Assembly (NCBI RefSeq): GCF_900112195.1
Contig: NZ_FOKR01000007.1
Span: forward strand, 55,584-119,583
Direction: 5' to 3'
Source of the DNA: Butyrivibrio sp. YAB3001
GTDB taxonomy: Bacteria; Bacillota; Clostridia; Lachnospirales; Lachnospiraceae
Length of the DNA stretch: 64,000 nt
Shown: positions 8,886-30,649 of the stretch, one piece after another
How positions within the stretch are numbered: the first letter of the stretch is position 1
Layout: each line of letters opens with the position of its first letter
Position numbers and translations under genes: made by a program
The notes under the pieces: generated by a model
Told to the model about the DNA's origin: nothing
Database searches by the model: none
The model's input: the letters and a program-made list of their open reading frames with translations, nothing else

Positions 8886-10112
8886 TCAACGATCCCAGCT
8901 AATGATTCCACGGGATATAAAATAAAATGTACGCAAGTCTTCTTTTAGCTGATTTGCTTTCTTTCCGGTTTCTGCATCTGCTCCACTTTCTATAATGCTG
9001 TCGCATATTTTCATACAGGTTGAATAACGCTTTATATAACCAAAATACTCTGCAATTTCCAATAACCTCTTATCACATCCTTTTCCTGGTTCCAATACTT
9101 TTATTTCCTCATACAACTCCTTCATAAGCTCAATTGTTCCAACCCGTTTGCCATTTTCAAAATTTATCTCCACCTGGTCTCTTAATCTATCGTGAAATCC
9201 TTTGTAAAACTCTTCAATAGAATGATCTAGAGGATATTCCCAGGGATTTGGCATATTAAAGCTCTGTTCACCAAATGCTTTGCTTTTCTTACCGATCACA
9301 ACAAGGTTATAAAAATCAAAATCCTTTCGTGTAACCTCGCGTTGTTCAATAAGGTTTTCTTTTACAGAGGCTCTAATTTCTTCTGGAATCTCATATATAG
9401 CTTCAGCTAATGCTCCTGCCATGCAAGCAATCGTATCACTGTCCCCACCCAAAGAAACTGCGTTTCTGATAACATCCTCAAAAGACTCTCCTTCTAAAAA
9501 TGCAATAATTGCTTCCGGAACAGATTTCTCACATGATACATGGAATGAATAATCTGGCCGAATATCATCAAGTTTCCTGTCAAGGTTATAGCCAAATGTA
9601 TCAGTTATGTACTTTTTAAACTCATCCTTACTACTTCCCGTCCGTAAAAGATAAATCCCTGCCGCAATGGCCTGAGCTCCCTTGATGCCTTCTTCATGAT
9701 TATGTGAGGGAGAAGCGGTTATCACTGCAATACGGAGAGTATCCTCAAGGGAATCACAAAACCATCCCACTGGTGAAACTCTCATAGCTGAGCCATTTCC
9801 ATAGCTGCCATATGGTTTTCTGCTTTCATCTTTTAGCCACTTAGCAAAACGACTGCCGTATCCGGCATCTGGAAACCTTCTGCCATAATATACCATGTAT
9901 TCTATGCACTTATCATATAACTTCTGCTCATAACCATCCCGTTTTTCTTTAATATCCTCATCACAATCAAGAAGCGCCCTTGAAATCGCCATTGTCATAA
10001 AACTATCATCTGTAATAGTGCTGCATTTAGTAAGGAGAAAAAAACGTTTATCTTTGATATTATTAAATTCATATATACTTCCTACCATGTCACCAATAAT
10101 CGCACCTATCAT
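8886..10112 (-). CDS. ADP-ribosylglycohydrolase (ARH/DraG family) with C-terminal extension (408 aa)
   Basis: The first ~260 residues are an ARH/DraG domain: N-terminal MIGAIIGDMVGSIYEF, metal site TDDS at about 34-37, GNGSAMRVSPVG near 110, ASPSHNHEEGIKGAQ near 135 and the second metal motif GGDSDTIACMAGA near 225. The family cleaves ADP-ribose from modified residues or small ADP-ribose conjugates using two Mg ions. An extra ~145-residue helical region follows, longer than a typical family member and of unknown role. ATG after GGAGGGTCTTGG. It lies beside a PARG-type macrodomain gene, so both probably act on ADP-ribosylated targets. Cytoplasmic. Confidence 0.9.
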   Translation of the reverse strand: MIGAIIGDMVGSIYEFNNIKDKRFFLLTKCSTITDDSFMTMAISRALLDCDEDIKEKRDGYEQKLYDKCIEYMVYYGRRFPDAGYGSRFAKWLKDESRKPYGSYGNGSAMRVSPVGWFCDSLEDTLRIAVITASPSHNHEEGIKGAQAIAAGIYLLRTGSSKDEFKKYITDTFGYNLDRKLDDIRPDYSFHVSCEKSVPEAIIAFLEGESFEDVIRNAVSLGGDSDTIACMAGALAEAIYEIPEEIRASVKENLIEQREVTRKDFDFYNLVVIGKKSKAFGEQSFNMPNPWEYPLDHSIEEFYKGFHDRLRDQVEINFENGKRVGTIELMKELYEEIKVLEPGKGCDKRLLEIAEYFGYIKRYSTCMKICDSIIESGADAETGKKANQLKEDLRTFYFISRGIISWDR

Positions 10113-10287
10113 CCAAGACCCTCCATACAGACAATCACGCCAAATAAATGTCCTTATATATTACTTATAAGATATGACATAGCCACCATCTGACCATATG
10201 TGCCCACTACATGTAAAACACTTTGATAAAGATCAGTGCTATCAACATTATCAGCATAGGTACATAGTGTCATTTTTCTCATTCTCT

Positions 10288-11130
10288 TCACCTCGTTAAA
10301 GGCTTAAGTGTTCTTTCAAAAATCTGATAATTATTATTTCCTCTGCTATATATCGCGTACTCAATGAATTTAAAGTTACTAAGATAGTCTTTCAGTACAT
10401 TCTTGGCAGCAAGTGCCACTACCTCAGGCTTGTTTTTAAAAGCTCCGCAACCAAATGCACCAAGAATAATGACTTCAATCTGGTTTGCTTTTGCCACATC
10501 CAGTATTCTACGTAACCGATTTTCATGAAGCGCTAATAGATCCACATCTGAAATTGTTACAGGTGCAGCTCCGTCTTCCGGATTGAAAAAGTTTGTAGGA
10601 TTTGTCTTCAGGTTCGGAGCGGCACATGTAATGACATCTACGTTATACCAGTCTGCTTCCGGCATAGTTTCAGGCCTATCAGTATCCTTCTTAAATACTG
10701 TAACATCAGGAGTATAAATAATGTCATCATTATGAATTGGATCCTGTGCTTTACGATGTGGAGTATAAAAGCCATTCCACATCTCTGGCGTATCTAGGCA
10801 AAAGTACAAGGTAGAACATCTGCAAAGGCACTCTTCCTGCGCTGATGAGCCATGAACTACTCCGCCACCTGGATTTGATGCAGATGCAAAGTTAAGAACA
10901 GCCGTCTTGTAGTCCTTATAATAAGATGCCGCCTCTAAGGTCCTCTTTTTTGACACGATGACTTTTGCATATTTTTCATATACAGTAGCATTACGACAAT
11001 CAGGTCTATCAGTTTCTAGAACAATTGCCTGTTTGCGTCTGGATCTTGCAATATTCGCCGATAATTTCAGATTTGTTTTACACATTAATTCAGTATCTTC
11101 AAAGATACTGATATTCTCTTTTCTTCCCAT
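10288..11130 (-). CDS. TIGR02452-type bacterial PARG macrodomain protein (280 aa)
   Basis: Carries the poly(ADP-ribose) glycohydrolase signature NPGGGVVHGSSAQEE (about residues 86-100) with the catalytic Glu pair, plus NFASASNPGGG and the later VIILGAFGCGAFKN macrodomain strand-loop (about 220-235). The family hydrolyses ADP-ribose polymers or conjugates. ATG at 11130 follows AAGGAG; an earlier ATG five codons upstream lacks a spaced site. Transcribed in the same direction as the ARH-type gene (175-base gap). Together they form a pair of ADP-ribose removers close to an uncharacterised module. Confidence 0.9.
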   Translation of the reverse strand: MGRKENISIFEDTELMCKTNLKLSANIARSRRKQAIVLETDRPDCRNATVYEKYAKVIVSKKRTLEAASYYKDYKTAVLNFASASNPGGGVVHGSSAQEECLCRCSTLYFCLDTPEMWNGFYTPHRKAQDPIHNDDIIYTPDVTVFKKDTDRPETMPEADWYNVDVITCAAPNLKTNPTNFFNPEDGAAPVTISDVDLLALHENRLRRILDVAKANQIEVIILGAFGCGAFKNKPEVVALAAKNVLKDYLSNFKFIEYAIYSRGNNNYQIFERTLKPLTR

Positions 11131-11163
11131 ATTTCTCCTTATCATTTAGCGCGAAGAAGCCAC

Positions 11164-12216: not shown

Positions 12217-13287
12217 TTAACAATATTTTTTTACATATTCTCCAAAGAATGGCAGGGCAATCTCAGCTGTTCCGTATGATTCGTCACTGTCTTTCAGTAT
12301 ACCCATTTTCTTAAGAGCGGTGCTGTATACCTGATAACTTCCACCGTTCTTCATCTGAGAGACAATTTCCTTTCTTTTCTTTGGGCCATTGCATACAATC
12401 CTTAATATTTCCCGTCCGCCTTCCGGTATTTCTTTCCAGATCTTTTCATAACACTGAGCGAACAGTTCTGACTTTGCCTGCTTTATGACATAATCCATCC
12501 CTTTTTCCTTATGAATGAAGTATGCACTTCCAAGGACCTGGTATGCATACGCAAATCCCTTCGTATCCTGTGCAAAACGGATAGCATCTTCTTCCTGCAT
12601 ATCGAGTTTATCTTCATATACTCTAGCCATGGCTGGTGTCGCAAAGGGTTCTGTTTTTATTTCATATGCCCTCTTAAAGAATGTAAGATTGTCTACTTCT
12701 CCCAGTTCATAAAAATTCTGATACACACCGGAACAGATAAGAAATACGGGCCAGGGTATGCCATCTTCTGTTTCATTTCGGATCAGTTTTGCATATACTG
12801 AACAGAACTGTGTCATCGCTTCTGTTTTAGCTATATCATCAATGCCTATCATTATTTTCTTTTTATTATTTATAAGTATGCCTATGAGCTGTTCAAGCCT
12901 TACTTCTGCGTCATAATTTATTTCTGCATTGTAGCTTGCATTTATCCCGATTATGGGCACAGAAGCGCTGAATTTTGTTTTTTCCGAGATAAGTGCCCTC
13001 TTTATTTCTGTTTCTAGCTCCAAATAAGAAAGTATTGTGTTTATAGGGTTCCTTGCAGAAGAAAGGTCATATACAAGCCATCCTCCATCTTTTTTCTCTT
13101 GCTCTCTGTAATGTCGCAGGATGTTACCATATAATACTGTCTTTCCAGAGCCTCTGACACCAATGATTTTAAATACATGCTCAGAAGGCGGATTATATCT
13201 GAAGTTTTCATATACCTGCTCTTCTAACCCAGTTGGAATATTTGCATCTCCTGACCTTCCCGGAGTATGTGTAAATGGATTTTTCAT
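12217..13287 (-). CDS. AAA/STAND-like ATP-binding protein with C-terminal winged helix (356 aa)
   Basis: P-loop GVRGSGKT (about residues 43-50), Walker B IMIGIDDI (about 145-152), a following sensor region (VFLICSGVYQNFYEL) and a C-terminal helical plus wHTH-like part (KRKEIVSQMKNGGSYQVYSTALKKMGIL). This is the archaeal-type ATPase group that includes STAND-like switches. It is a distant paralogue of the 28952-29992 product with the same layout (NPF start, GVRGxGKT, YxxAYQVLG, YEKIW/YEKVW). ATG after TGGAGGAAGCGCAAA. A phased array of TTACA repeats begins 16 bases upstream of the ATG and covers the likely promoter, suggesting autoregulation, possibly by the wHTH. Cytoplasmic; partner unknown. 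Confidence 0.85.
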   Translation of the reverse strand: MKNPFTHTPGRSGDANIPTGLEEQVYENFRYNPPSEHVFKIIGVRGSGKTVLYGNILRHYREQEKKDGGWLVYDLSSARNPINTILSYLELETEIKRALISEKTKFSASVPIIGINASYNAEINYDAEVRLEQLIGILINNKKKIMIGIDDIAKTEAMTQFCSVYAKLIRNETEDGIPWPVFLICSGVYQNFYELGEVDNLTFFKRAYEIKTEPFATPAMARVYEDKLDMQEEDAIRFAQDTKGFAYAYQVLGSAYFIHKEKGMDYVIKQAKSELFAQCYEKIWKEIPEGGREILRIVCNGPKKRKEIVSQMKNGGSYQVYSTALKKMGILKDSDESYGTAEIALPFFGEYVKKYC

Positions 13288-13302
13288 TTTGCGCTTCCTC
13301 CA

Positions 13303-13394
13303 TTACAAGTATTTACACGTTTTACATATTTTACAACTTCTTACAGGTATTTACAACTAATTATACCCTTATATTTGATTTACAACTATTTACA
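13303..13394 (-). repeat. Helically phased iteron array upstream of ATPase 1
   Basis: On the plus strand TTACA starts at 13303, 13313, 13322, 13331, 13341, 13351, 13380 and 13390, with a degenerate TTATA at 13361. Spacing is 9-10 bases, about one helical turn, with one unit missing near 13371. On the gene strand the unit is TGTAAAT. It lies directly 5' of the ATPase start and would place all half-sites on one DNA face. Confidence 0.85.
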
Positions 13395-13490
13395 GTTTTG
13401 GCAATATTCGCTCATAACATTATATGCTTTCTCTCTATCGAAACCTCTGTGTAACCGGCTAATGAAACAGCCTCTTTTAATGAGCTGAAT
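13395..13490 (-). other. Short coding-like remnant between MIF gene and iterons
   Basis: In frame after the MIF stop, the minus strand reads on as a coding-like piece with FISRLHRGFDREKAYNVMSE and a terminal CQNCK, ending at a TAG inside the first iteron. It has no start codon or ribosome binding site. Probably the tail of a lost gene; not identified. Confidence 0.3.
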
Positions 13491-13939: not shown

Positions 13940-14908
13940 TCAGGGATTGCATCTTTTGCAAGGATCATACCCCTGTTGTATTAGCGCAGCCCTTGTACCT
14001 TCATAATACATTTTATTCTTTTCTTTCATATCTTTCACGCTGTCGCAGGAAGGATTATGAAATTTCTTGGAATTCTTGTTAACAACATATGTTGTTCCAG
14101 CAGGAACAGTAGTATCACTCTGCGCAGGAGCAGATCTGTCTACAGATGTTCCGATATTATCGCCTGTAACTACAAATTCATCTGCACTTACACTCTTCTT
14201 ATAGTTCGGATCTGCCTTGTTACTGCCATTGGTATAATTGATGATTACTCCTGGCTGCACGTTGTAGCAGTATACGTTAAAAGAAATCCCTTTTCCCTTA
14301 TCCTCTACCGAATAGCCTTCTATCTGAACACCGCTGCAAAGAAGGTTTTTGTCTTCAAACACAGGAATAACTCTGTACATTACATGGTTGCCAGTGCTGC
14401 GAACATAATCAGCAACCTCATTTTCATAAGGCAGCATGCCTTCTACATTCATGTAGCGAGTGCCTGTAATTAGATTCTGCTCATTAGCATTCTCTCCTGT
14501 AAGCTGAAATCCAATCATGTGGCATCTGTTATAGAGATACGGAGGATCTGAATCTACCAGGCCAGGGTACTTGTTCTGTTTCCATCCGGTAGGCTTTACC
14601 ATGCTGATTGACTGACGTTCCTTAGTAGGCATAAGGTCTTTTCCAAGACAAGCCATTGCAAGTGTACAGCGCCCTTTATCATCCAAATCACCATAATACT
14701 CATAGGAATTTGTTGTGATTTCATCAGCTGTAAACTCCGGTACATTCTCATTTAACTCCACTGAAGCGCTACCGCTATATGAGGGGATTTCTTCCTCTGC
14801 ATGAGTCTTAACATTGCAGAACAAAAAAGAAGACATCCCTAAAGAAAGCGCCAACAGTAGAGCAAATATTGTATTTGCAAAACCAACCTTTCCCAAGCAT
14901 GTCCTCAT
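13940..14908 (-). CDS. Secreted DNA/RNA non-specific endonuclease (EndA/NucA-like, 322 aa)
   Basis: ATG at 14908 follows AAAGAGGATACAAAT; starting here gives a signal peptide with hydrophobic core IFALLLALSLGMSSFLF. The nuclease domain spans roughly residues 60-235: YLYNRCHMIGFQLTGEN carries the catalytic His (family consensus DRGH, here NRCH) and NEQNLITGTRYMNV the conserved Asn. A C-terminal ~55-residue module (TYVVNKNSKKFHNPSC ... GYDPCKRCNP) is the small Cys-containing domain common at the end of clostridial DNA-entry nucleases. It acts outside the cell on nucleic acids. An earlier in-frame ATG overlaps the preceding gene and has no signal peptide logic. A short piece (about 14833-14852) is copied at 28928-28946. 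Confidence 0.85.
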   Translation of the reverse strand: MRTCLGKVGFANTIFALLLALSLGMSSFLFCNVKTHAEEEIPSYSGSASVELNENVPEFTADEITTNSYEYYGDLDDKGRCTLAMACLGKDLMPTKERQSISMVKPTGWKQNKYPGLVDSDPPYLYNRCHMIGFQLTGENANEQNLITGTRYMNVEGMLPYENEVADYVRSTGNHVMYRVIPVFEDKNLLCSGVQIEGYSVEDKGKGISFNVYCYNVQPGVIINYTNGSNKADPNYKKSVSADEFVVTGDNIGTSVDRSAPAQSDTTVPAGTTYVVNKNSKKFHNPSCDSVKDMKEKNKMYYEGTRAALIQQGYDPCKRCNP

Positions 14909-14933
14909 ATTTGTATCCTCTTTATAATGAAAA

Positions 14934-15218
14934 CTAAAACTCATCATCAAAAAAATCGGGATCAAAGCCCGCTTCCTCAATAACTTCTCTTCGTTCATGT
15001 GCATCCATAAATTCTATATCATCAAGGAGTTCCTCTTCCTCATCAGTTTTCAGCTCATCCTCACCATGTATTTTATCATATAAAATCCTATCATATGCCA
15101 TTCTGGAGCTCTCTTCCAAAAAATCTAAATCTCCATCGTGGTCACGATCCCAGTTCTCTGCTCCACCATCTGTATGTTCCATTCCAAAATAATGATATTT
15201 ATCATATGAAATACCCAT
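14934..15218 (-). CDS. Acidic protein with EF-hand-like motif (94 aa)
   Basis: ATG after GAAGGAGCAATAAATT. Very acidic protein; WDRDHDGDLDFLEE (about residues 23-36) matches an EF-hand calcium loop. The rest is acidic helix (KTDEEEELLDDIEFMDAHERREVIEE). No signal peptide. It ends 25 bases before the nuclease start, so it is probably in one operon. Its ribosome binding site derives from a copied 5' fragment of the esterase gene. Confidence 0.65.
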   Translation of the reverse strand: MGISYDKYHYFGMEHTDGGAENWDRDHDGDLDFLEESSRMAYDRILYDKIHGEDELKTDEEEELLDDIEFMDAHERREVIEEAGFDPDFFDDEF

Positions 15219-28951: not shown

Positions 28952-29992
28952 TCAGAGCATCGTCATCTTTACGAACTCTTCAAATCTTGGTAAAGCGAGC
29001 CGCACAATTCCATGACTGGTACCATCTACAATGCCTTTTTTAACCAACCTGTCTCTTTGTACAGAAAAAACCTTATCTGTAGAACCAGTCTTGGCAATAA
29101 TATCCCTTGTTTTCATCTCTCCTTTTTCTGCAAGAAGCGTTATTATCTCCTTCTCTTTTTCAGAAAGATCATCCCAGACTTTCTCATAACAATAACCTGC
29201 CATTTTTTCGTCAAAAAACGGAATTGCCTCTTCTAAAGAGCAATCCTTATCCCACATGATATAGCCAAGTACCTGGAATGCATAAGAATATCCCTTCGTG
29301 AAGGCAGCCATCTTAAGAGCTTCTTTCTCACTACACTGGAAAGTCTGCATATACTGATTCTTCATGCCGATAAGGCTGAGCGGTCCAATATTCACTTTTT
29401 CTGCGCGCAAAAGAAATGAACAACGTTTATCCCTCTGAAGATTGTAAATATTTTCGTACAAACCTGTCATAAGCAGATAAAGCTGCATTCTCCTCCCAAT
29501 AAGATCCTGAAATGCACATGCAAAACTTATAACGTCTTTGCTCTTGGTTACGTCATCTATAGTAATCAGAATTCGCATTCCCTTATCATTAACAATCTTC
29601 ACCATTTTCTCAATAGCAATCTGAATATCAGAAATCGGTGGATTCTTTTTTATGTTTAATCCAATTCCAAACTTGGACAGATTTAAAGAAGCCTCCACAA
29701 AGTATTTCTGGAGCTTCGCATCCTCATATAGTCCTGCAGCAAGCATCTCCAGCAGGTTTCGACCAGAATTCAAAGAGACAACAACCCAATCTTTATCTTC
29801 CCTGAAATCATTGGATATTGTCGATAAAAGTACTGTTTTCCCAATCCCTCTTACTCCCATAATGCAATAGCAGTTGCTTGATGGAGATATGCTGTTGAAG
29901 GTTTCTGCTATTTTAGAATATGCGTCTGCACGTTCTACATATCTGTCTGGTTCTTTACCAAAACTAAGACAAAAAGGATTATTCTTTGACAT
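28952..29992 (-). CDS. AAA/STAND-like ATP-binding protein with winged helix, paralogue 2 (346 aa)
   Basis: P-loop GVRGIGKT (about 46-53), Walker B RILITIDDV (about 138), sensor-like LYLLMTGLYENIYNL, conserved YSYAFQVLGYIMW and a C-terminal wHTH (MKTRDIIAKTGSTDKVFSVQRDRLVKKGI). Distant paralogue of the 12217-13287 protein with the same order of motifs. ATG after CAGGAGTGATTT. A phased array of GTTAG repeats starts 22 bases upstream of the ATG. Role unknown; an ATP-dependent switch that binds its own promoter is possible. Confidence 0.85.
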   Translation of the reverse strand: MSKNNPFCLSFGKEPDRYVERADAYSKIAETFNSISPSSNCYCIMGVRGIGKTVLLSTISNDFREDKDWVVVSLNSGRNLLEMLAAGLYEDAKLQKYFVEASLNLSKFGIGLNIKKNPPISDIQIAIEKMVKIVNDKGMRILITIDDVTKSKDVISFACAFQDLIGRRMQLYLLMTGLYENIYNLQRDKRCSFLLRAEKVNIGPLSLIGMKNQYMQTFQCSEKEALKMAAFTKGYSYAFQVLGYIMWDKDCSLEEAIPFFDEKMAGYCYEKVWDDLSEKEKEIITLLAEKGEMKTRDIIAKTGSTDKVFSVQRDRLVKKGIVDGTSHGIVRLALPRFEEFVKMTML

Positions 29993-30013
29993 AAATCACT
30001 CCTGTAAATCTGT

Positions 30014-30076
30014 GTTAGCATTTTTTAGCTGTGTTAGTTTGTGTTAGATTTTAATAATCGTGTTAGATTGCGTTAG
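30014..30076 (-). repeat. Helically phased iteron array upstream of ATPase 2
   Basis: Plus-strand GTTAG (mostly within GTGTTAG) starts at 30014, 30033, 30043, 30062 and 30072, with TTTAG at 30024 and one unit missing at 30053; spacing 9-10 bases. Same architecture as the array before ATPase 1 but a different core sequence. Confidence 0.85.
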
Positions 30077-30099
30077 ATTTCGTCATTATTTTATCCCGT

Positions 30100-30524
30100 T
30101 TAACATTTTTTGTCTATATATCTTATCCGCCCACAATCTCTGGCACAACGAAGTAACCCCTCAAATACTTCACTAAAAATAACTCCATGTTTTCTAGCCT
30201 TGCTGCAATCCATCCAAAGATTGTGAAGTGGGGCGATTTCCTCAACACAAAGATCCAATCCAAGCGCTTTTGAAAAATCACTTGTCACTTCAAACATGCT
30301 CTTATTGGTTTCACTGCCGAAGTTATAAATGCCACCAGGTAGTGCAATAACCTTCTCCATGTTTTCAGCAACTTCTTTAACGTATGTCAGACCTCTGAAA
30401 TATCAATGAAACGCCTGACCTCTTCCTCTGTTACATTTCTAAGTGAGGGTGCCGCAACTGTATCCTTACATAGCTCCATTATTTTGCCACCAACAAATCC
30501 TGTAGCGCCTGTTACAAGTATCAT
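30100..30524 (-). pseudogene. dTDP-4-dehydrorhamnose-reductase-like gene with internal deletion
   Basis: ATG at 30524 after AGAGG starts an NAD-binding N-terminus (MILVTGATGFVGGKIMEL) that runs ~45 codons to TGA near 30389. The C-terminal part (GGIYNFGSETNKSMFEVTSD ... WMDCSKARKHGV) resumes at 30360-30100 in another frame. The middle ~150 residues, including the catalytic YxxxK, are missing. Confidence 0.8.
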
Positions 30525-30649
30525 GTTCTTATACCTCTTTATAAAAAACTCAATGGAAAAATCCTGTTCCCCAGAACCCAGTTTTTGTTTCTTTTACTAT
30601 CATTATATGATGCTAATTGAAAAAATAGGAACTGTAAAAAAATGATATC

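Follow-up and report, generated by a model that had tools for sequence, protein, structure and literature searches.

Phased arrays of direct repeats precede small STAND ATPase genes and carry words that vary with the recognition helix of the encoded protein

A 64,000-nucleotide stretch of the Butyrivibrio sp. YAB3001 genome (contig NZ_FOKR01000007.1, positions 55,584 to 119,583; hereafter "the window") carries two paralogous genes for small ATPases, P0001 and P0002, each preceded by an array of short, regularly spaced direct repeats. The features of the two loci, in window coordinates, are as follows.

28952..29992, minus strand: P0002, STAND/Orc1-like ATPase, 346 aa (Pfam ATPase_2/AAA_16/NB-ARC)
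29051..29086, minus strand: codons of the P0002 recognition helix (helix 3), residues 303-314, in the region of the best-correlated protein segments (helix 306-319 in the structural model)
29999..30003, minus strand: likely ribosome-binding site AGGAG of P0002 (sequence reading)
30013..30080, minus strand: phased array of P0002, 10-mer words AAATCTAACG, CAATCTAACA, AAATCTAACA, CAAACTAACA and AATGCTAACA at steps of 10, 19, 10 and 19
30024-30028, minus strand: sixth, degenerate unit of the P0002 array (sequence reading)
30088..30116, minus strand: promoter-like TAGACA-17-TAAAAT adjoining the array on its upstream side, 10/12 consensus matches
12217..13287, minus strand: P0001, the first paralogue, 356 aa, 29% identical to P0002
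12313..12348, minus strand: codons of the P0001 helix-3 stretch NGGSYQVYSTAL (counted by hand)
about 13301..13397, minus strand: phased array of P0001, eight TGTAAA-type words at steps of 10, 29, 10, 10, 9, 9 and 10

A preliminary description of the P0002 array, made from the sequence alone, reported GTTAG units at a 9-10-base period with one degenerate and one missing position, and this matches the DNA base for base. On the plus strand, GTTAG starts at 30014, 30033, 30043, 30062 and 30072; the degenerate unit is TTTAG at 30024, and the missing unit is an empty turn at about 30052, giving unit-to-unit steps of 10, 9, 10, 19 and 10. The gene-strand word is (A)ATCTAACAC, and from the promoter side the array reads CTAACGC, CTAACAC, an empty turn, CTAACAC, CTAACAC, the degenerate GCTAAAAA, and CTAACAC. 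Downstream of the last word come AGGAG and then the ATG (first base 29992), which lies 20 bases from the end of the array. The pattern GTTAG-N14-GTTAG-N5-GTTAG has two exact matches in the window, both in this array, and a third place matches with two mismatches; 100 dinucleotide shuffles of the window gave a mean of 0.09 matches at up to two mismatches, with a maximum of 2. Across the 4.59-Mb genome, the triple pattern occurs only at the P0002 array (two overlapping matches; reversed control 0), as does the doublet CTAACRC-N2-4-CTAACRC (two matches; control 0). At the search sensitivity used, the genome holds only two copies of the family, P0001 and P0002. The two have different core words, as the preliminary description had stated: CTAAC-type at P0002 versus TGTAAA-type at P0001. 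The genome pattern search with P0001 words returned four matches at its own array and three elsewhere, with four in the reversed control, which is the background level.

P0002 has an N-terminal NNPF motif, a P-loop (GVRGIGKT), a Walker B motif, a helical domain and a C-terminal winged helix. It scores above the Pfam cut-offs for ATPase_2 and NB-ARC, with the P-loop NTPase core and both Walker A and Walker B present, and G46, R48, G49, G51, K52 and D146 are invariant in 40 family members. In the AlphaFold2 model (mean pLDDT, the predicted local distance difference test, 94), a nucleotide-binding domain, helical domain and winged helix follow one another in STAND order and arrangement. These three domains use up all 346 residues, leaving no room for MalT-type additions; neither sensor repeats nor a separate C-terminal DNA-binding domain were found by Pfam search or in the model. 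Among the matches listed, the folds closest to the model are 2qen, 2fna, NLR/CED-4 and Orc2. P0002 thus has the AAA+ core and winged helix of the Cdc6/Orc1 initiators, and it falls outside the orc1/cdc6 sequence model TIGR02928 (12.6 bits, cut-off 181.3). Comparison with known defense systems in PADLOC gave no strong whole-protein match (best E 0.0021 for P0001; for P0002, CasR at E 1.2e-5 over residues 250-328 only), and NCBIfam and PHROGs searches gave weak matches only.

Evidence that the arrays are a family trait came from relatives in other genomes. For the training set, 147 of 149 proteins passed a length filter, and 141 were left after removing rows at 90% identity; for the held-out set, 25 of 76 candidates were dropped for sharing 90% identity or more with training rows or with one another, leaving 51. 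Controls were the upstream regions of 584 other open reading frames on the same contigs, of which 564 were clean after removal of 20 that overlapped array regions. The word search covered only the gene strand, and a word-finder score above 6 was taken as an array. Arrays were found in 135 of the 141 training relatives versus 12 of the 564 clean controls, at least one of the latter being a run of N; at a score above 8.5, the figures were 127 of 141 versus 3 of 564. Among held-out relatives, 47 of 51 have arrays. A motif-free count agrees: in the last 150 bases upstream of the 141 relatives, identical 6-mers recur at lags of 10, 19, 29, 39, 48-49, 58 and 68 bp, with 10.3, 6.0 and 12.8 pairs per sequence at 10, 19 and 29 bp versus 0.18, 0.07 and 0.11 in the 584 controls. 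The enrichment of these lags is about 20- to 130-fold. The underlying design has two words separated by one helical turn, and this pair recurs every 29 bp (three turns). Across all 182 arrays, the median number of words is 7 (range 3-13), steps of 9-11 make up 68% of the total and steps of 18-21 a further 28%, and the last word lies a median of 16 bases from the start codon. The words keep one register (AGTTATAAAA-like) on the gene strand, suggesting that the array is polar.

Distant relatives on plasmids, sampled in 8 of 62 records, behave less uniformly: L332 and L334 score above 6, L335 scores exactly 6, and five fall below. L334, from a Lactobacillus crispatus plasmid, has a clear AGTAAAATG array. 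In the distant actinobacterial and Sphingobium relatives (the L335, L337, L338 group), short word pairs seem to be present near the start codon without passing the score.

The words differ from member to member, and the listing of words beside helix-3 residues is orderly. Helices with N310-P311 go with AGTAAA words in 12 of 12 cases (training and held-out sets together), SVQR/SVHR helices with CTAACA (five proteins, including P0002) and TVYR helices with TTGTAAA (five proteins). SVYR helices mostly accompany TTATAAA, TTATATAA or GATATAAA, and STYR helices mostly TTATTAA, TTATGAA or TTATAGA, with L149 and L065 as exceptions; TTYR helices have TTGTGAA or TTGTGGA, and EWSxPR helices have TTATAT. 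Because this listing had been looked at first, all positions were then put to the same test, in which word distance was corrected for ATPase-domain distance and its correlation with each 11-residue segment of the protein was measured. The best segment, first of 336, was 304-314, and columns 311 and 310 ranked first and second; the partial Mantel r was 0.29, versus a largest value of 0.155 in 2000 permutations. The word thus tracks helix 3 (residues 301-316, in the C-terminal winged helix) more closely than it tracks other segments. For pairs of the 182 members that are 50-80% identical in the ATPase domain, r reached 0.50 at segment 305-315 versus a median of 0.02, and the top six segments start at 301-306; with the range set at 45-75% or 50-80%, segments starting there gave r of 0.36-0.50 versus medians of 0.01-0.02. 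Within the 50-80% range, mean word distance was 0.093 for the 151 pairs sharing 9 or more of the 11 helix residues and 0.308 for the 1670 pairs sharing 6 or fewer.

Rules linking helix to word were fixed before the new genomes were fetched, with the word register kept from the first set. In the held-out set, N310-P311 predicted AGTAAA in 1 of 1 (R1); T310 predicted G at base 4 in 2 of 2, and S310 with V/T311 predicted A there in 9 of 9 (R3); T311 altered bases 6-8 in 5 of 5, and V311 retained them in 12 of 12 (R4). As base rates for these calls, 11 of the 47 held-out words have G at base 4 and 36 have A, and bases 6-8 are of T311 type in 8 and V311 type in 30. The W309-P312 helix predicted a TTATAT core in 8 of 9, or 7 of 9 by the string first written (R5); as applied, this rule selected proteins more broadly (W309 with P312) and accepted a less strict word (TTATAT) than in its written form, and the written NEW motif gave 3 of 3. 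When each held-out word was predicted from the nearest neighbor, the mean word distance was 0.145 using the 11 residues of helix 3, 0.148 using the 265 residues of the ATPase domain, 0.144 using the whole protein, 0.183 using the rest of the winged helix and 0.398 for a random word; the eight best of 335 segments start at 301-308. On an ATPase-domain tree, independent pairs for four contrasts averaged 2.6, 3.1, 1.0 and 3.6 as expected and 0.0 opposed. For three held-out proteins with a QV-x-S helix (L272, L273, L274), TGTAA words like those of P0001 were noted post hoc.

It has to be asked whether such a pattern could be neutral, with repeats arising by slippage in AT-rich promoters and the protein correlation reflecting shared ancestry. 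Word and ATPase-domain divergence are indeed correlated (r 0.43), and 11 of the 20 best single columns lie outside the winged helix. However, control upstreams of the same contigs lack arrays (12 of 564 score), and the segment correlation is highest at the extreme 3' end of the gene and persists once ATPase-domain distance has been corrected for. The helix codons are about 900 bases from the array, at the opposite end of the gene, a location for the peak that physical linkage by itself would not explain. We regard the neutral explanation as scarcely credible, and these sequence comparisons strongly support the view that helix 3 reads the array. The preliminary description had proposed that each paralogue recognizes its own array as part of a family-wide autoregulatory code. 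Arrays are present rather than lacking in most relatives of both sets, and core words correlate with recognition-helix residues with a peak at helix 3, as own-array recognition would predict; the family-wide part of the proposal is thereby borne out, while "autoregulatory" is suggested by the position of the arrays.

That position is at the promoter. A promoter-like pair was found in 109 of the 182 upstream regions versus 126 of 584 controls. Of the 109, 36 have the −35 box exactly 8 bases ahead of the first word and 52 have it at −9 to −6; where a word start precedes the −10 box (87 cases), the box begins at base 5 of a word in 59. The commonest placement has the first word pair occupying the −35/−10 spacer, the second word forming the −10 box and the rest of the array lying in the leader, which is the geometry of a repressor operator. 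P0002 is a variant, with the promoter-like pair directly upstream, so that the array would cover the transcription start and leader; this pair is weak when taken alone, two promoter-like sites having been found on the whole stretch versus 1.1 expected. The alternative that the ATPase, once bound to the array, turns on its own promoter or works as a bistable switch has some points in its favor: MalT, a STAND regulator, is an activator, the −35 box precedes the first word by over 30 bases in 16 of the 109 cases and lies more than 3 bases after the start of that word in 19, and in L021 and L027 the array, judged by eye, is upstream of the likely promoter. Since the commonest placement is instead that of a repressor, we consider activation unlikely. 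A role for the words in the mRNA leader, through an RNA-binding protein or an effect on translation, would fit the many words in the presumed leader and the median distance of 16 bases to the start codon. However, in many arrays the first words fall between −35 and −10 and hence are untranscribed, and the helical 10/19/29 period and covariation with the recognition helix of a winged helix point to double-stranded DNA. A leader mechanism is therefore very improbable.

The arrays appear to be largely private to their own genes. In flanks of about 1-5 kb per side from the 182 members, own-word triplets outside the own promoter exceeded the 99% level of the other-word control in a single flank, that of L158, with 1.8 expected. 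At positions 5696-5736 of L158, a second own-word array lies about 500 bases downstream of the ATPase gene. A search of five genomes for GTTGTGGA doublets found one extra place, in G613 (reversed control 0); G264, also searched, had no match. This is a GTTGTGGA array on the minus strand at about 1850-1891 of L310 (G613:C20), before a gene for a patatin-like phospholipase just upstream of the ATPase L264; the patatin-like gene is a possible second target. CAGTAAA doublets, sought in seven genomes, had extra places in G002 and G083, with three matches in the reversed control. At about 2465-2535 of L308 (G002:C28), CAGTAAACGACAGTAAAA occurs twice with a third word upstream of a gene pair, of which the second gene encodes an AbiEii-type toxin (Pfam E 2.3e-28) and the first has no Pfam match. 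No family ATPase is present in the fetched 6 kb at L308, and the array there is a possible target in trans or a relic. One address per protein would then be the rule, and the exceptions may be real secondary targets. An added orthogonality between paralogues of the same genome was rejected: the observed value was 0.408 versus a matched null of 0.405 (88 pairs, 87 matched), and same-genome paralogues avoid each other's words no more than protein divergence predicts.

The arrays, their phasing, their placement at promoters, their covariation with helix 3 and the lack of a further P0002 array in its own genome can be read directly from DNA. We consider it likely that they reflect private, cooperative autorepression by head-to-tail assembly of each ATPase on its own array. 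According to this model, the product of each gene is a minimal STAND ATPase made up of a nucleotide-binding domain, a helical domain and a winged helix, without an added sensor or effector domain, and the winged helix of the ATPase core would be the true DNA reader. Protomers would occupy the array head to tail, one per 10-bp word on the same face of the helix, and would be mostly paired with an empty turn between pairs, giving the 29-bp super-period. The array commonly runs from the −35/−10 region through the leader to the ribosome-binding site, and a filled array would block RNA polymerase, resulting in private, cooperative autorepression. The repression would presumably be relieved or reinforced by the nucleotide state or by some signal. 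With helix 3 and the array words diverging in step, members of one genome would seldom share an operator. Physical binding, repression rather than activation, ATP dependence, the signal and any role of the ATPase beyond control of its own transcript are the inferred parts of this model. A bolder and rather doubtful proposal is that the array serves as a private nucleation strip for a phased head-to-tail STAND filament beside its own gene, making the ATPase a poised sensor with helix 3 and array drifting together from copy to copy. If this were true, the family would be a one-gene, one-address system spreading as an accessory gene, and its natural, matched protein-DNA word pairs (182 here, several hundred expected) would yield a recognition code for winged helices.

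Several results weigh against private autorepression read through helix 3. No array was detected in 10 of the 192 relatives. Six of these belong to the training set (L085, L102, L104, L169, L110 and L054), the upstream DNA of the last two being short (68 and 138 bases), and four to the held-out set (L271, L229, L231 and L233), the last three being sister proteins with an NPY-x-PGA start. The match of the −10 box to the words is partly built in, because many words are TATAA-like. In 25 of 72 loci, the next gene runs in the same direction within 60 bases (47 of 72 share direction at any distance), so that control by the array may extend beyond the ATPase at these loci, and some arrays may govern short operons. 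Same-word doublets occur away from the gene in 3 of 12 other genomes, with three reversed-control matches in two of them. The covariation itself is weaker between more distant proteins, r reaching only 0.20-0.23 for pairs 35-50% identical (six best segments, starting at 304-310). One held-out rule, Q/H312 with CTAAC (R2), was correct in 0 of 1, the sole case being the distant L275. As a nearest-neighbor predictor for the 47 held-out members, in a comparison set out beforehand, helix 3 was not significantly better than the ATPase domain (14 better, 11 worse, p 0.53), the tree-independent pairs are too few for significance, and single-column mutual information failed to separate the domains.

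The family is scattered. P0002 matched in 53 of 299 genomes of the same taxonomic family and P0001 in 47 of 299. In an order-level sample, the profile matched in 106 of 392 genomes, many matches being short or weak, and in a phylum-level sample in 23 of 398, with every match below E 1e-40 falling in the window's own taxonomic family. A scan of species genomes gave at least 570 confirmed relatives, from which 80 loci were kept; these are mostly from Lachnospiraceae, with others including Streptococcus sobrinus and Parafannyhessea. As many as seven copies were seen in one genome (G002). Relatives occur on 62 of 72,556 plasmid records, all below 60% identity (best 35%), and on two viral contigs; none of 50,697 phage records matched at E 1e-5, and a phage origin was accordingly rejected. 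A further alternative is that the array serves as a centromere or replication iteron, with the ATPase acting in partition or as an initiator; autoregulation would then be a side effect, as in the ParR/parC and omega systems. The Orc/Cdc6-like fold, the phased direct repeats at the own promoter and the relatives, mostly distant, on plasmid records and two viral contigs are consistent with such a role. It is nevertheless improbable, given that members reside on megabase contigs (G529, G624) and a complete genome (L128), with up to seven in a genome, that no recurrent neighbor of replication or partition type was seen among the clustered neighbor genes of 73 loci, most of these genes being unnamed, and that no phage record matched at the limit used.

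STAND regulators such as MalT and IniR are large proteins with sensor domains, and MalT has a separate C-terminal DNA-binding domain. As proposed here, P0002 would share with them, as far as the available source text goes, a STAND ATPase core in transcription control; it differs in that the winged helix of the core itself seems to be the reader. The archaeal ATPases 2qen (PAB2304) and 2fna (SSO1545) are among the closest systems, as are the Pfam families ATPase_2 and nSTAND_NTPase5. We know of no DNA target for the archaeal proteins, and none appears for ATPases of this type in the titles and abstract openings of the literature matches listed. Within a regulator family, operators usually share a single motif or diverge only a little. 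A family with multi-copy operators for each member and words changing with the recognition helix was not described in the literature searched, among the matches listed.

Partial precedents exist, each taken here from the available part of its source. Cdc6/Orc1 and the plant NLR Rx1 are precedents for a STAND-type ATPase fold on DNA (PMC4599002); Cdc6/Orc1 proteins differ from P0002 in that they bind replication origins, and sequence identity is only 13-16%. BldC resembles the proposed ATPase assembly in that it multimerizes head to tail, through its winged-helix domain, on 9-bp direct repeats whose number varies, but it is a 68-residue MerR-like regulator with many targets and no ATPase domain, and that part of the report mentions no private array per paralogue (PMC5859096). 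RptR is an autorepressor of a phage-defense island that acts through direct repeats, two of which suffice for full repression; it is, in contrast, a 9-kDa helical homodimer without an ATPase, encoded by the first gene of a defense operon, and its minimal site is a palindrome conserved across bacteria, the word not being diversified (PMC12255303). Protein-DNA covariation has already been used for GntR regulators (PMC4494728). The present data suggest that the winged helix of a minimal STAND core can read sequence, as in Orc1, rather than serving solely as part of a switch, as in NLRs. The 182 ATPases examined, and probably several hundred in all, would each have a multi-copy, self-labeled operator beside the gene, with many different words, so that protein and DNA word could be paired without experiment. 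Such pairs would form an extensive natural resource for studying winged-helix recognition and a set of repressor-operator pairs that may be orthogonal, and the DNA target would offer a first tangible way into the small STAND/ATPase_2 proteins.

Clustering of the neighbor genes, mostly unnamed, at 73 loci revealed no recurrent functional partner; the largest cluster was found in 9 loci at mixed positions and the second in 8. Eight of the 73 loci share a neighbor taken by eye for a priming sugar transferase, directly downstream in six. A sub-group sits at polysaccharide genes (L098, L103, L105, L116, L120, L131, L139, L146 and L332), the plasmid member L332 lying, by annotation, between an O-antigen ligase and a glycosyltransferase. 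The next gene downstream of P0002 encodes phosphofructokinase. An empty site for P0002 was not demonstrable from five phosphofructokinase orthologues, which match the window inside that gene only, bar one 45-bp match (L313). Upstream of the P0002 array, the window at about 30100-30530 resembles, by eye, a broken sugar-nucleotide epimerase gene; an 86-aa open reading frame there has no Pfam match. Elsewhere in the window, positions 13940-15004 encode a DNA/RNA non-specific endonuclease fused to an Ada-type metal-binding domain, and genes for an ADP-ribosylglycohydrolase and a microbial PARG adjoin each other at 8886-11145.
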